Under the pieces are notes generated by a model. That model was given only the letters and a program-made list of their open reading frames with translations, was not told the DNA's origin and did no database searches. A stretch of 62,150 nucleotides of DNA. Source: Microbacteriaceae bacterium. GTDB lineage: Bacteria; Actinomycetota; Actinomycetes; Actinomycetales; Microbacteriaceae. Made by a program: the position numbers and the translations under genes. Location: NCBI GenBank assembly GCA_025463565.1, contig JAODAT010000093.1:1-62150 (forward strand). The letters are read 5' to 3'. Below, piece by piece: positions 7,688 to 11,439 of this stretch (the first letter of the stretch is position 1; each line of letters begins with the position of its first letter).

Positions 7688-8722
7688 CTAAGCCTCGTAA
7701 GTGCGCGTGACCCTCGCGCTGAGCCTCGTCACGATCTCCTCACCGATGGTGCCCGTGGCATCCGCCCACTCCTGAAGGGTCTGCTCGCCCCGCAGTCCCG
7801 CACCGAAGAGCACGGCGTTGTCTCCTCTGCGACCCGGTCCAGCCACGGTCATCGTGCCGGCATCGATCGAGATCACCTTGTATCGCCTTCCGTCGAGCGC
7901 CACCGAGACCGCGCCGACGACGGCACTCGAAATGCCATCCGCCAGGCCGATGCCGAGCACTGAGGACTCGTCAATAGATTCGACGACCGGCGCTGTGAGA
8001 GTCATCACTGGCGTGAGTCCCAGCTCGGCCGGACCGACACCGTCGCCCGGTGCGATGCCGTAGCCGAATGCGCCTATCCGCACCAGGTCGAACCGGGCAT
8101 CGCCACGGGCGAAGCTCGCAGCACTGGCCGCAAGATGACGCACCTCGAAGGCGGCGCCCAGGCTCTCCGCCACGGCGATCGCCTCGTGGAAGCGCTCGAT
8201 CGCCGCGGAGTCCTCGTCGAACGACGCCTCGGCGATGTGCGTGAATACGCCCACCAGTTCGACCCGTCCAGCCGTCGAGAGTTCGACAGCGCGGCTGACC
8301 AGCCGAGGCCAGTCCGCAGCAGATGAACCATTGCGGTGAAGCCCGGTGTCGATCTTCAGGTGAAGCCGCGCAGAACTGTCGCGTGCGGCCGCCGCGATCG
8401 ATTCCAGCTGGGCGATGGTCGAAATGCCGAGGTCGATTTGTGCGTCCACGGCGGCGGCGTAGTCCTCGTCCGGCCCCAGGAGCCAGGCCAGAATCGACGA
8501 CTCGTCGCCCACTCCCCCTGCCCGAAGCGCGAGCCCGGTGGCAATGTCGAGCGAACCGAACCAGCGGATGCCGGCTTCCAGCGCCGCGCGCGCCATCGGC
8601 AACAGGCCGTGACCGTACGCATCCGCTTTGACGACGGCCATCACGCTCGCGGGAGCCACCCTGGTCGCGATTGTCGCAAGGTTGCGGCGGTAGGCCGCGA
8701 GATCGATCCTCGCCTCGCTCAT
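7688..8722 (-). CDS. Alanine racemase-like protein with PLP-lysine barrel but without the catalytic tyrosine segment
   Basis: This 344-residue fold-type III PLP protein resembles alanine racemase. The barrel keeps the expected residues: Lys32 and Tyr36 in AVVKADAYGHG, Arg130 in KIDTGLHRNG, His162 in GVFTHIAE and Arg215 in VRIGAFGYG. The C-terminal domain is altered. The stretch that normally reads GEGVSYG, carrying the catalytic Tyr (Tyr265 in Geobacillus Alr), is missing between ESID and ESSVLGIG. The second pocket Tyr (GYADG) is Leu260 (GLADG), CMDQ is replaced by SIDA, and the Tyr of TISYEI is Glu. A homodimer should therefore lack the second catalytic base. The start ATG overlaps the stop of the upstream Alr-like gene (ATGA), which suggests coupled translation. 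See the findings for the proposed heteromer. Confidence 0.85.
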   Translation of the reverse strand: MSEARIDLAAYRRNLATIATRVAPASVMAVVKADAYGHGLLPMARAALEAGIRWFGSLDIATGLALRAGGVGDESSILAWLLGPDEDYAAAVDAQIDLGISTIAQLESIAAAARDSSARLHLKIDTGLHRNGSSAADWPRLVSRAVELSTAGRVELVGVFTHIAEASFDEDSAAIERFHEAIAVAESLGAAFEVRHLAASAASFARGDARFDLVRIGAFGYGIAPGDGVGPAELGLTPVMTLTAPVVESIDESSVLGIGLADGISSAVVGAVSVALDGRRYKVISIDAGTMTVAGPGRRGDNAVLFGAGLRGEQTLQEWADATGTIGEEIVTRLSARVTRTYEA

Positions 8723-9396
8723 GTGCTCGCCACTGTGTTCGCCCCTGGGCTCGTCCCTCTGCTTGCTTTAGCCGCGAACTCGAGCACTATTTCCTCCGGC
8801 CGACGCCCGATGGCCGTCGCCCACACGGACACGGTGCGGCTCTCACCGAACACCTCCGCGGTCGTTCCGATTGGGACGACCTCGCTGCCGAGGTCGACCA
8901 TCAGCACGTTCATCGCCACGCGCCCGACGATGGGCATCTCGCGGCCACCGACCACCAGTGCTCCGGCGTTGCCCGCTGCCCGGTCGAGGCCGTCCGCGTA
9001 GCCGATGCCGACCATGCCGAGCATCGAGCGGCTGCGCGCGCGAAACGTATAGCCGTACGACACCCCGTCACCGGGCTGCACCGGCTTGAGGCCGACGACC
9101 TCGGCGGTCACTCGCATGGCGGGAGTGAAACCGGCCACCCAGCCGTAAAGTTCGTCCGGGCCGTTGCCGGTGCGCGAGATCGGCGCTGTGATGCCCGAGC
9201 TGCGCAACTGCCGCTCCTCCGCGTCCGACGCGACCGCGAGGCCGGTGGCACCGCCCTCGAGGGCCGCGCCTGCAGAGACAAGGGCACCGTGACCCCAGCC
9301 GTCGAACGAGACGTCCGCGATCCTGTCACCCGCCGCCGCAAGGAGGCCGGCGTTGGCACAGATGGCGGCCGCGTCGATGCGCACCGAGTGCAGCAT
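8719..9396 (-). CDS. Short alanine racemase-like protein: keeps the catalytic tyrosine domain, lacks the PLP lysine
   Basis: This 225-residue protein has a remnant of the Alr barrel and an intact-looking C-terminal beta domain. Where Alr has AVVKADAYGHG it has ADVSFDGWGHG, so the PLP lysine is Ser30 and the following Tyr is Trp34. About 120 residues of the barrel are absent between residues 75 and 84. The C-terminal domain keeps GDGVSYG with Tyr114 (Tyr265 equivalent), GYADG with Tyr133 exactly 19 residues later (Tyr284 equivalent), and GRVAMN with Met162 (Met312 equivalent). It cannot bind PLP through lysine by itself. It begins 4 nt after the gatD-like stop and its own stop overlaps the next alr start. 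It is not a broken gene: it has its own N-terminus and complete C-terminal domain. Confidence 0.8.
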   Translation of the reverse strand: MLHSVRIDAAAICANAGLLAAAGDRIADVSFDGWGHGALVSAGAALEGGATGLAVASDAEERQLRSSGITAPISRTGNGPDELYGWVAGFTPAMRVTAEVVGLKPVQPGDGVSYGYTFRARSRSMLGMVGIGYADGLDRAAGNAGALVVGGREMPIVGRVAMNVLMVDLGSEVVPIGTTAEVFGESRTVSVWATAIGRRPEEIVLEFAAKASRGTSPGANTVAST

Positions 9397-9400
9397 CCGG

Positions 9401-10138
9401 CTAGATCCTCGAGAACACGTGCTTCGCGTGCGACACGATCACGTCGCGCGCCTGTTCGGCGTACCGGTCCAGGTCGAGCAGTTCGGCTGATGGCGCGTAG
9501 TCGAAGCCGGAATTCGCCGCCATGAAGCCGATGATGGCGTCGGTCAGCAGCGGGTTGAGCGGCAGCACCGGTCCCCCGATCTGGGTTCCGATGAGGGAGC
9601 CGAACAGCACACCCTCGGCATTTCCGTCGCTGTTGCCACCGCCCTCGAGAAGCACGCCCAGCGCGTCCGCCGGGCGATCGAGGTGCCAGGCCGACGCGTT
9701 GTCCTCGAAGCCCACCAGGCCGCCGAATTTCGTCTCGGTGAGCACGTAGCCCACCGTGCGGGTCTGGATGCGTTCGGCGGAGAACGGCAGGATTTCGATG
9801 CCGTCCATCACGCTGCCGTCCAGCTGTGTGATGCCGTGGCCGAACAGCTCGGCTCCTGATCCATAGGCGAAGAGCGGAACGCCGGAGGCGACGTACCCCC
9901 GCAGGGTGTCGGCGGATGCCAGCAGGTCGGCATGCACATTGCGCATCGCTGACAGCGGCCCGTTGCCGACGACCACAAGGTCGGCAGCGCCGGGCAGTTT
10001 ATTGCCCGCGACGTGCTCGACGATGGTCACCTCGTGCCCGGAACGCTGCAGGCGCTCGCGTACGGCCATCACGTTGCCGCGGTCGCCAGCGACGCCGAGC
10101 TCGTCGGGATAAAGCTGAAGGATGCTGAGCGCGCTCAC
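9401..10138 (-). CDS. GatD-like protein with the glutaminase site lost
   Basis: This 245-residue protein belongs to the class I amidotransferase fold of GatD, the glutaminase partner of MurT that supplies ammonia for amidating D-Glu in lipid II. The N-terminal LYPDELGVAGDRGNV is typical of GatD. However, the nucleophile-elbow region reads LFAYGSGAELFG, with Gly93 where S. aureus GatD has Cys94. The later motif reads GTQIGGPVLPLNP, with Gly188 at the place of His189. The whole protein contains no cysteine. It therefore cannot hydrolyse glutamine by the known mechanism. The GTG start at 10138 overlaps the murT-like stop (GTGA), which fixes the start. It probably acts as a structural partner of the MurT-like ligase. 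Confidence 0.82.
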   Translation of the reverse strand: MSALSILQLYPDELGVAGDRGNVMAVRERLQRSGHEVTIVEHVAGNKLPGAADLVVVGNGPLSAMRNVHADLLASADTLRGYVASGVPLFAYGSGAELFGHGITQLDGSVMDGIEILPFSAERIQTRTVGYVLTETKFGGLVGFEDNASAWHLDRPADALGVLLEGGGNSDGNAEGVLFGSLIGTQIGGPVLPLNPLLTDAIIGFMAANSGFDYAPSAELLDLDRYAEQARDVIVSHAKHVFSRI

Positions 10139-11439
10139 CGCTGGTTCTCCAGTTCGAGGAAGCCGATCTGCTTTCGCGCGAGCATCATGATCTCGTAGTT
10201 GACGATCCACGTCTTCAGGCCCGATGACGGCTTCGGGAGGCCCTTCATGATGTCGATCGCCTTCTTCAGGTCGGGTTCGACGGTGCCGATGCGGATTCCC
10301 TCGTGCTCGAGACGCAGTGCGATCTGCCAGGCCTTCGCACCGGTGATCACGTCGACGTGATCCAGGGCCGCGAAGTCGATGTCGTAGATCCAGGAGATAT
10401 CCGGTGTGCCCTCGTCGATGGCGAGCAGAACCTGTTCGGGCGGCTCCGGCAGGGCGTCGAGGTTGAGCTGCAGGCTGGCCGCGTTCTTGAACATGACGAA
10501 CTCGACCTGTTCTTCGCCGAACTGCAGAAGCTCGCCGCGCCCATATGCCGGCTTCATGGCGGCGAAGGCCTTCGCTGCGGACTCGCCGCTGAAATCCTCG
10601 CCGAGGATGACGGATGCCGTGGCGAGCGCCGCCGCCGCGTCGATCCCGTAGTGCAGCCCCTTCGCCGGCAGGATCACGTCGATCACCTGGCCGGCCACGT
10701 CGATGGTCGCCCCCGCGCGGTCCGTTCCCACCAGCTCGGCGCGAGCGACGTGGGGTTCGAGCGTGATGTGCGCGTCGCGATAATCCTTCGCGTTGAAGAG
10801 GCCGTGGGGAGCGGCGGCGATCACCGCCTCGGTCGCCCCGAAGTAGGTGATGTCGGGCCGGGTCGCATCTCCCGCCGCATAGCGGCGTGCGATCTTCGAA
10901 AGATAGGGGTCTTCGCGGTTGGTGACGATGTGCGCACTCGCACGCTCGGCGGTGTCGAGCATCATGTCGGCCACCCGCTCGGTCTCGTAGAAACGGTAGA
11001 GCTGGTCGACCTGGGTGTTGAGTACCAGCACGGTCGCCGGCGGGACTACCGCGGCGAACTCGAGCGCGAAGGCCTCGTCCACCTCGAGCACGCCGATGTC
11101 GGCTTTCAGCCGGCCGAAGACGCTCGACTCGGCGAGGATCGACGACGCGATGCCCTGCGGCAGGTTCGCACCCGAGGGGTTGGTGAACACCGTGAGCCCG
11201 TGGCCCCGCAGTACCTCGGTGAGCATGTGCGTTGTCGTCGACTTGCCGTTGCTTCCGAGCACGTAGACGATGCCGTAGCGGAACTGGCTGGTCACATCCC
11301 GCAGGAAGTTCGGGGCGAGCCGTGTCGTGACGTAGCCCGGGAAGGCCGAGCCGCCACCGCGAATCTTCGCGACAGCACGCACGGCCTTGCCCGCGACCAC
11401 GGGCACGAAGTACTTCGGCCCGTATGGCTTGTTGGCCAA
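10135..11439 (-). CDS. MurT-like Mur ligase family protein without the zinc ribbon
   Basis: This 434-residue Mur ligase homologue has a P-loop GSNGKSTTT (Lys66), VLEVDEA, LNTQVDQ, a later YGRGE and PDISWIYDIDF. It resembles MurT, which uses ATP to activate the alpha-carboxyl of D-Glu in lipid II for amidation with ammonia from GatD. MurT normally carries a four-cysteine zinc ribbon inside the central domain, but this protein has no cysteine. The carboxyl-activating half thus looks intact while the nitrogen-delivery features of both partners are gone. The TTG start at 11439 is 8 nt after the sigA stop; in-frame GTG codons lie a few residues downstream and remain possible. The gene opens a tightly coupled four-gene block ending at alr. 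Confidence 0.82.
   Translation of the reverse strand: MANKPYGPKYFVPVVAGKAVRAVAKIRGGGSAFPGYVTTRLAPNFLRDVTSQFRYGIVYVLGSNGKSTTTHMLTEVLRGHGLTVFTNPSGANLPQGIASSILAESSVFGRLKADIGVLEVDEAFALEFAAVVPPATVLVLNTQVDQLYRFYETERVADMMLDTAERASAHIVTNREDPYLSKIARRYAAGDATRPDITYFGATEAVIAAAPHGLFNAKDYRDAHITLEPHVARAELVGTDRAGATIDVAGQVIDVILPAKGLHYGIDAAAALATASVILGEDFSGESAAKAFAAMKPAYGRGELLQFGEEQVEFVMFKNAASLQLNLDALPEPPEQVLLAIDEGTPDISWIYDIDFAALDHVDVITGAKAWQIALRLEHEGIRIGTVEPDLKKAIDIMKGLPKPSSGLKTWIVNYEIMMLARKQIGFLELENQR

Follow-up and report, generated by a model that had tools for sequence, protein, structure and literature searches.

The window analysed here is the whole of a 62,150-nucleotide stretch of DNA from a Microbacteriaceae bacterium. 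Within it lies a tight run of four genes on the same strand, which encode a MurT-like protein, a GatD-like protein and two racemase-like chains, one short (S) and one long (L), with S and L as the last two of the run. The features are listed below in the order of the run; residue numbers in brackets are those of the Bacillus stearothermophilus alanine racemase (Alr).

11439..10135, minus strand: MurT-like gene, first of the four; no CxxC motifs
10210..9401, minus strand: GatD-like gene; catalytic Cys and His both absent
9396..8719, minus strand: S, short racemase-like chain, 225 aa; barrel reduced to a stub, with Ser30 replacing the lysine
9309-9307, minus strand: codon of S Ser30 (place of the PLP lysine)
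9057-9055, minus strand: codon of S Tyr114 (catalytic tyrosine, Y265)
8719..8722, minus strand: ATGA overlap, S stop and L start
8722..7688, minus strand: L, long racemase-like chain, 344 aa; PLP barrel with Lys32, Tyr36, Arg130, His162 and Arg215
8629-8627, minus strand: codon of L Lys32 (PLP lysine, K39)

Both racemase-like open reading frames are real. Their coordinates and the ATGA overlap between them had been given in an earlier note, made without database searches, and hold; the strand was not stated there, hence the gene order was missing. Both genes are on the minus strand, so the short gene precedes the long one. The gap between the GatD-like gene and S is 4 bases. The listed start of the GatD-like gene at 10210 overlaps the MurT-like gene, and a GTG at 10138 is, from the translation, perhaps the true start. 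This would give a 4-base GTGA overlap with the MurT-like stop codon.

The residues assigned by the earlier note are likewise all confirmed, these being Lys32, Tyr36, Arg130, His162, Arg215, a GLADG motif and the loss of the stretch bearing GVSYG in L, and Ser30, Tyr114, Tyr133 and Met162 in S. The C-terminal domain of L is without the segment that carries the catalytic tyrosine and has Glu at the Tyr354 position, so the expectation of a Tyr354 in the lysine-bearing chain is not met. That of S retains Tyr114, Tyr133, Arg139 and Met162. Neither chain has the lysine and the catalytic tyrosine together, as functional Alr does, L being without Tyr265 and S without Lys39. Jointly, the pair holds K39, Y43, K129, R136, H166 and R219 in L and Y265, Y284 and M312 in S, with S Arg139 at R290.

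In Pfam, L matches the full Ala_racemase_N domain and an Ala_racemase_C domain starting only at position 35; S matches positions 29-75 only of Ala_racemase_N, a piece of 47 residues, and positions 1-124 of the 127 of Ala_racemase_C. With the NCBIfam equivalog TIGR00492 (alr), L scores 168.2 against a curated cut-off of 168, and S is below it at 111.5. The AlphaFold model of the single L chain (pLDDT 96.2, pTM 0.92) has Alr 1xfc_B as its top PDB match (TMq 0.93), and that of S (pLDDT 93.0, pTM 0.87) has Alr 8b8h_B (TMq 0.84). The 50 PDB matches listed for each chain consist of alanine racemases, of VanT, a related serine racemase, and of designed proteins of the same fold. Pfam and the single-chain models place both S and L in the alanine racemase fold family, with the barrel of S as a stub.

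Partition of the active-site residues

In known Alr each active site is formed by the N-domain of one monomer and the C-domain of the other (PMC3245724). Tyr265 and Met312 enter the site from the partner chain, and Lys39, Tyr43, Ser204, Arg219 and Tyr354 sit on the lysine's own chain (PMC3245724, PMC3485190). The earlier note had proposed that S and L restore one complete site between them. Such a model predicts that only residues serving in cis are kept in L and only those serving in trans in S. This composite-site model is supported site by site across the loci, by comparison only; interaction and activity are inferred.

In each of the 77 composite loci classified there is a single barrel with K39 and a single C-domain with Y265, and these are in different modules. 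The modules were named by K39 and Y265, and the remaining sites are independent of this naming. Across the 56 window-type loci, L has K39 in 56/56 and R136, H166, S204 and R219 each in 55/56. Residues of the trans set are nearly absent from it, with Y265 in 0/55, R290 in 4/55 and M312 in 1/55. The window-type S has Y265 and M312 in 56/56 and R290 in 55/56, and Tyr354 in none of 56. K39 and R136 are found in none of the 44 S stubs with a profile match (a further 12 stubs gave none); at K39 these stubs have Arg in 32, Ser in 5, Ala in 4, Thr in 1, Gly in 1 and a gap in 1. Two sites are less clean, Tyr284 being retained in 15/55 and Asp313 in 41/55 of the L chains. The partition is equal in 21 further composites, the sole-racemase type described below, where Tyr354 is present in 21/21 L modules and 0/21 S modules. 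At this position all 55 readable window-type L have Asp or Glu. Because the residues divide by the site that each serves, simple decay is disfavoured. Chance and sequencing error are excluded as causes by the recurrence of the partition in all 77 loci and by the low dN/dS given below.

Distribution, intermediates and ancestry

Searches were made in 299 genomes of the family and, using profiles for S, L and the MurT-like protein, in 90 genomes that represent 84 genera; fetched loci were then examined. Composite loci were recognised in at least 31 of the 90 genomes and at least 28 of the 84 genera. These are lower bounds, as not every match or genome was examined. The 77 classified loci come from 68 genomes, representing 31 genus labels of one family and one MAG. 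The family is identified as Microbacteriaceae by named kin (Curtobacterium pusillum, Cryobacterium sp. Y11 and Microbacterium oxydans), and three named Microbacterium records were assigned to the label g85 by name and kinship. Named carriers are Microbacterium testaceum StLB037 and Microbacterium sp. TPD7012, as well as two MAGs, Microbacterium sp. 69-10 and Micrococcales bacterium Ww38. Left out of the 77 are L179, an apparent frameshifted full Alr, L186, a full pair whose barrel matches are split by the profile, and the repeat fetches L204, L212, L214, L219, L226, L227 and L230.

A survey of Microbacteriaceae for co-occurrence of S and L had been called for by the earlier note, and the two are found together in all loci classified. 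Since the loci were chosen by S- or L-like matches, the 77 are a non-random sample in which orphan chains may have been overlooked. In the 56 window-type two-gene entries, which correspond to 53 places with three fetched twice, the estimated start of L, on the same strand, ranges from -7 to +76 nt relative to the stop of S. Four extra S-L pairs of the Microbacterium group (L254-L257, genus g85), with very diverged L C-domains, are outside the 77. In G469, also of g85, no S-like match was among those listed, which hints that the trait is variable in this genus.

In a search of 198 genomes of the order, of which 184 belong to other families, the listed matches include nothing recognised as an S-like protein. 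G310 and G335, whose listed matches reach furthest toward the S N-terminus, were considered as S-like proteins outside the family and rejected, both being full Alr. A contig search with S alone as query found no relative. The alignment search with L returned at least 80 named loci, and these are mostly ordinary Alr. L is also matched by 275 plasmid records, all at less than 60% identity; among 10 listed plasmid matches, 7 are annotated as alr, 1 is a place without a feature and 2 are in unannotated records.

The S and L modules are naturally fused in several genera. Fusions in S-L order are found in G243 and G234 and in L-S order in genera g21, g50 and g74; in g77 the L-S order is present as two genes. 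In g50 (L191, L218-L222) the composite ORF itself extends into another domain, which in L191 we take to be TsaE.

Full-length tandems, with an upstream member A and a downstream member B that both have the Lys and the Tyr, are present at 16 loci by automatic count, and in addition at L186 and in Curtobacterium pusillum. The 16 loci and L186 (L063, L064, L068, L082 and others) span nine genus labels. Residue 354 in the 16 counted tandems is Tyr in A (once Trp) and Asp or Glu in every B. Loci with partial losses are also found. The partner in L181 has 88% of a barrel, with Thr, Phe and Gln at K39, Y43 and R136. L080 is a single chain of 759 aa, a lysine-less full racemase followed by L; L180 and L171 have partial barrels; and L164 has an L in which the loop is retained with Gly instead of the catalytic Tyr. 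The dN/dS of S and L is 0.088-0.185 in eight comparisons from four species pairs of relatives, the window's own genes being excluded.

The trees are quick searches, with group labels assigned after the residues were known. In the barrel tree, L and the tandem member B are separated from the side of A and the housekeeping Alr, which has an SH-aLRT of 99, and the two lysine-less partner barrels are on this A side, on long branches flagged as possibly falsely joined. The barrel tree, together with the equal gene order in tandems and window-type pairs, suggests that S is the former A and L the former B. It is likely that they arose from these by complementary loss in a full-length tandem, with the direction of evolution inferred. 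The C-domain trees are weak: S groups with tandem A in one (80) and not in the thinned tree. A single clade of all L modules is rejected by the AU test (p 0.0001), and the tyrosine has therefore been lost more than once; one clade of the window-type L without B is not rejected (p 0.072). The S modules of g77 are placed among B in the thinned C-domain tree (SH-aLRT 95). The AU test fails to reject a single S clade, at p 0.53 with all S of the sole-racemase type and 0.38 with g77 alone, so the number of S origins is undecided. Reciprocal loss in g77, the opposite resolution of the tandem, rests on the SH-aLRT of 95 only and can be offered as no more than a possibility.

Sole racemases, substrate and neighbouring genes

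In 18 genomes that are 97-100% complete (six g21, five g50, five g77 and two g74), every Ala_racemase_C (PF00842) match lies in a composite. None of the 18 passes the cut-off for the D-amino-acid transaminase TIGR01121, and weaker aminotransferase matches are present in 17. Barrel-only PF01168 proteins are also present in these genomes and were not inspected singly. D-Ala is needed for peptidoglycan. Because of this need, and because no other Ala_racemase_C protein was found, the sole composites probably racemise alanine and are the likely makers of D-Ala in these genomes, an activity that is inferred. They are of the Tyr354 type and not of the window type. Three other g74 genomes (G073, G188 and G274) have an additional full Alr with Lys and Tyr present and Ala at Tyr354. 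These additional Alr (L270, L271 and L272) are diverged, and Ala at this position is as in the broad-specificity racemase Bar (PMC3485190).

One reduced genome, G015 (0.9 Mb, 98% complete), has as its single Ala_racemase_C match the S of a window-type pair, and no full Alr was found in it. It is the only window-type genome lacking a full Alr, and other sources of D-Ala were unexamined there. Its pair (L172) is very diverged, has Asn for Tyr43 in L, and is beside diverged MurT- and GatD-like genes.

The genome from which the window comes (G000, 88.4% complete) encodes, in addition to S and L, one full-length Alr at C4 and another at C25, both with Lys and Tyr. The S/L pair is therefore not the only racemase of this genome. 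The C25 Alr (L001, G000:C25:28942-30015) deviates at Tyr43 (Phe) and Tyr354 (His) and is in a 515-aa ORF. A canonical alr elsewhere, combined with no interaction between the two products, would according to the earlier note refute the composite site. This is half met, as two full Alr exist and interaction is unmeasured. Because L has Glu at Tyr354, the two full Alr fit a second substrate better than they fit a refutation of the model. In the 90-genome sample, 27 of the 31 genomes recognised as bearing composites also have a full Alr with Lys and Tyr, the exceptions being G015, G020, G049 and G077.

Strict alanine specificity is attributed to Tyr354 together with Tyr265 (PMC3485190). The Tyr354 position is Thr391 in the lysine racemase Lyr and Ala393 in Bar (PMC3485190). 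With the T391Y change about half of the lysine activity of the lysine racemase was left and there was no significant change in Lys/Arg specificity (PMC3485190). As lysine activity and Lys/Arg preference were kept, residue 354 alone does not set the substrate. Asp or Glu at 354 removes the phosphate contact of Tyr354, and the possibility that this means lost activity has to be allowed for.

The walls of Microbacterium contain L-lysine, D-ornithine or diaminobutyrate, with D-ornithine in 3/4 species of the M. testaceum clade (PMC10757982), and that of Subtercola is of type B2gamma with diaminobutyrate (Dab) (PMC5945732). A basic substrate is suggested by the acidic residue 354, the separate full Alr and the partial adjacency to murT/gatD-like genes. 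On balance we lean towards racemisation of a diamino acid (Orn, Dab or Lys) for type-B peptidoglycan by the window pair, the substrate being inferred.

The glutaminase Cys is absent from the window GatD-like protein and from 44 of the 45 GatD-like ORFs in which this region is covered, the one in G003 keeping it. The count of 45 is taken from the motif listing and includes one place twice. The window GatD-like protein is also without the His, which other GatD-like ORFs retain. MurT has a Cys4 zinc ribbon; no CxxC is found in the window MurT-like protein or in any of 45 MurT-like ORFs, 5 of which are end fragments. The neighbours resemble the MurT-GatD lipid II isoglutaminyl synthase as a gene pair and in sequence match, but differ from it in the missing glutaminase Cys and CxxC. 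The co-occurrence of S-L with MurT-like genes is partial: within the 90-genome sample, G001, G036, G044, G057, G058, G084, G085 and G089 carry S-L without any MurT-like match above 30 bits, and G053 has S-L with only a partial MurT-like match of 92 bits. A bolder proposal, which is tentative, is that the MurT-like/GatD-like pair joins an amino acid, not ammonia, to the alpha-carboxyl of D-Glu.

Proposed heterodimer and rival explanations

In the proposed mechanism, S and L, both of the alanine racemase fold, would be obligate partners in a heterodimer that has a single working PLP site. L would give the barrel, the Schiff-base Lys32 and the PLP pocket. From S, across the interface, would come Tyr114 as the second catalytic base, together with Met162, Arg139 and Tyr133 on the side of the substrate carboxylate. 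The mirror site would have been lost from both chains. The division of residues and its conservation, the adjacency of the genes, the fusions and the folds of the single chains are shown. This composite-site reading is considered likely, at a probability of about 0.85, with the tandem ancestry probable and the diamino-acid substrate only somewhat more likely than not; formation of the dimer, catalysis, the substrate and the direction of evolution are inferred.

The closest known system is Alr/DadX (PF01168 and PF00842, fold type III), which shares with S/L the fold, the PLP lysine motif, the catalytic Tyr and a site shared between chains (PMC3245724). Alr/DadX is however a homodimer with two sites, whereas S and L are unlike chains that are each without half a site, and one site per pair is expected. 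Lyr and Bar have the Tyr354 position replaced, as in the window L (PMC3485190), but carry the Lys and Tyr in one polypeptide, while the S/L chains are split and the replacement is Asp or Glu. Serine palmitoyltransferase LCB1/LCB2 is a PLP-dependent obligate heterodimer with the lysine in one chain only. It differs from S/L in being of PLP fold type I and in that the partner is not trimmed to a C-domain. The trypanosome AdoMetDC and its dead paralogue, prozyme, are comparable in that an inactive paralogue is required for activity (PMC5201418), yet prozyme relieves autoinhibition, whereas S is expected to bring a catalytic residue.

The pair could instead be a non-catalytic complex, regulatory or PLP-binding, in which L holds PLP without racemisation. 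Each chain alone is without one catalytic base, the PLP-phosphate ligand Tyr354 is gone from L, and the own genome has two full Alr, all of which would suit such a pseudoenzyme. Against this, S keeps the substrate residues R290, M312 and Y265 at the frequencies given above and L keeps the pocket bar Tyr354, both of which are unnecessary in a pseudoenzyme, and in 18 near-complete genomes no Ala_racemase_C protein was found other than composites built alike. This explanation is thought unlikely. Less likely still is that L or S pairs with the full-length Alr of the cell and that the adjacency is merely inherited. The dimer surfaces are homologous and either chain could be accepted, but S and L are together in all classified loci, the modules are fused in several genera, and composites occur where no full Alr was found (the 18 genomes and G015). 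The least credible is an assembly artefact in which one racemase gene is frameshifted. L179 (in G009) does resemble a full Alr read in two frames. However, the deletions are at equal places in many genera, dN/dS is low, and L and the lysine-less partner barrels are on different branches of the barrel tree; the comparison refutes this explanation and all but excludes it.

A composite site that is real, but that serves as a second alanine racemase and not as a diamino-acid racemase, cannot be dismissed in the same way and is possible. The family usually acts on alanine, the Lys/Arg specificity of lysine racemase was not switched by the change at Tyr354 (PMC3485190), and in G015 the window-type pair is the only Alr-like protein found. 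Against it are the Asp or Glu at Tyr354 in all readable window-type L, the coexisting full Alr in most composite-bearing genomes, and the retention of Tyr354 throughout the sole-racemase type.

The heterodimer with a diamino-acid substrate remains the preferred reading, and it can be extended, speculatively, to the tandems. The full A-B tandems may already be two-site heterodimers, in which the A lysine with Tyr354 would make an alanine site and the B lysine with Asp/Glu354 a diamino-acid site, and from which lineages would have kept one site by reciprocal loss. The window type would then have kept the B-lysine/A-tyrosine site and g77 the A-lysine/B-tyrosine site. On this extension S:L would make the D-diamino acid for type-B peptidoglycan, and the operon of S:L with the MurT/GatD-like genes would be type-B peptidoglycan machinery.

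The literature searched yielded no description of an alanine racemase that is split or heteromeric, which is weak evidence of absence, since most subscription journals were not covered. As inferred from sequence, the composites represent a widespread and repeatedly modified heteromeric version of alanine racemase that is undescribed in that literature. The textbook form of Alr is a homodimer, and the enzyme, which is essential in most cases, is targeted by drugs. In this one family of soil and plant bacteria it seemingly turned into a heteromer that works only as a pair, each chain having lost what the other retains; intermediates and fusions are preserved there, and the loss of the tyrosine has more than one origin. 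The origin of heteromers from duplicated homomers by degeneration is a long-standing idea, and these loci make it directly testable. For the bacteria themselves, S/L may be what supplies type-B peptidoglycan with its D-diamino acids, and a glutaminase-dead MurT/GatD-like pair adjoins it.
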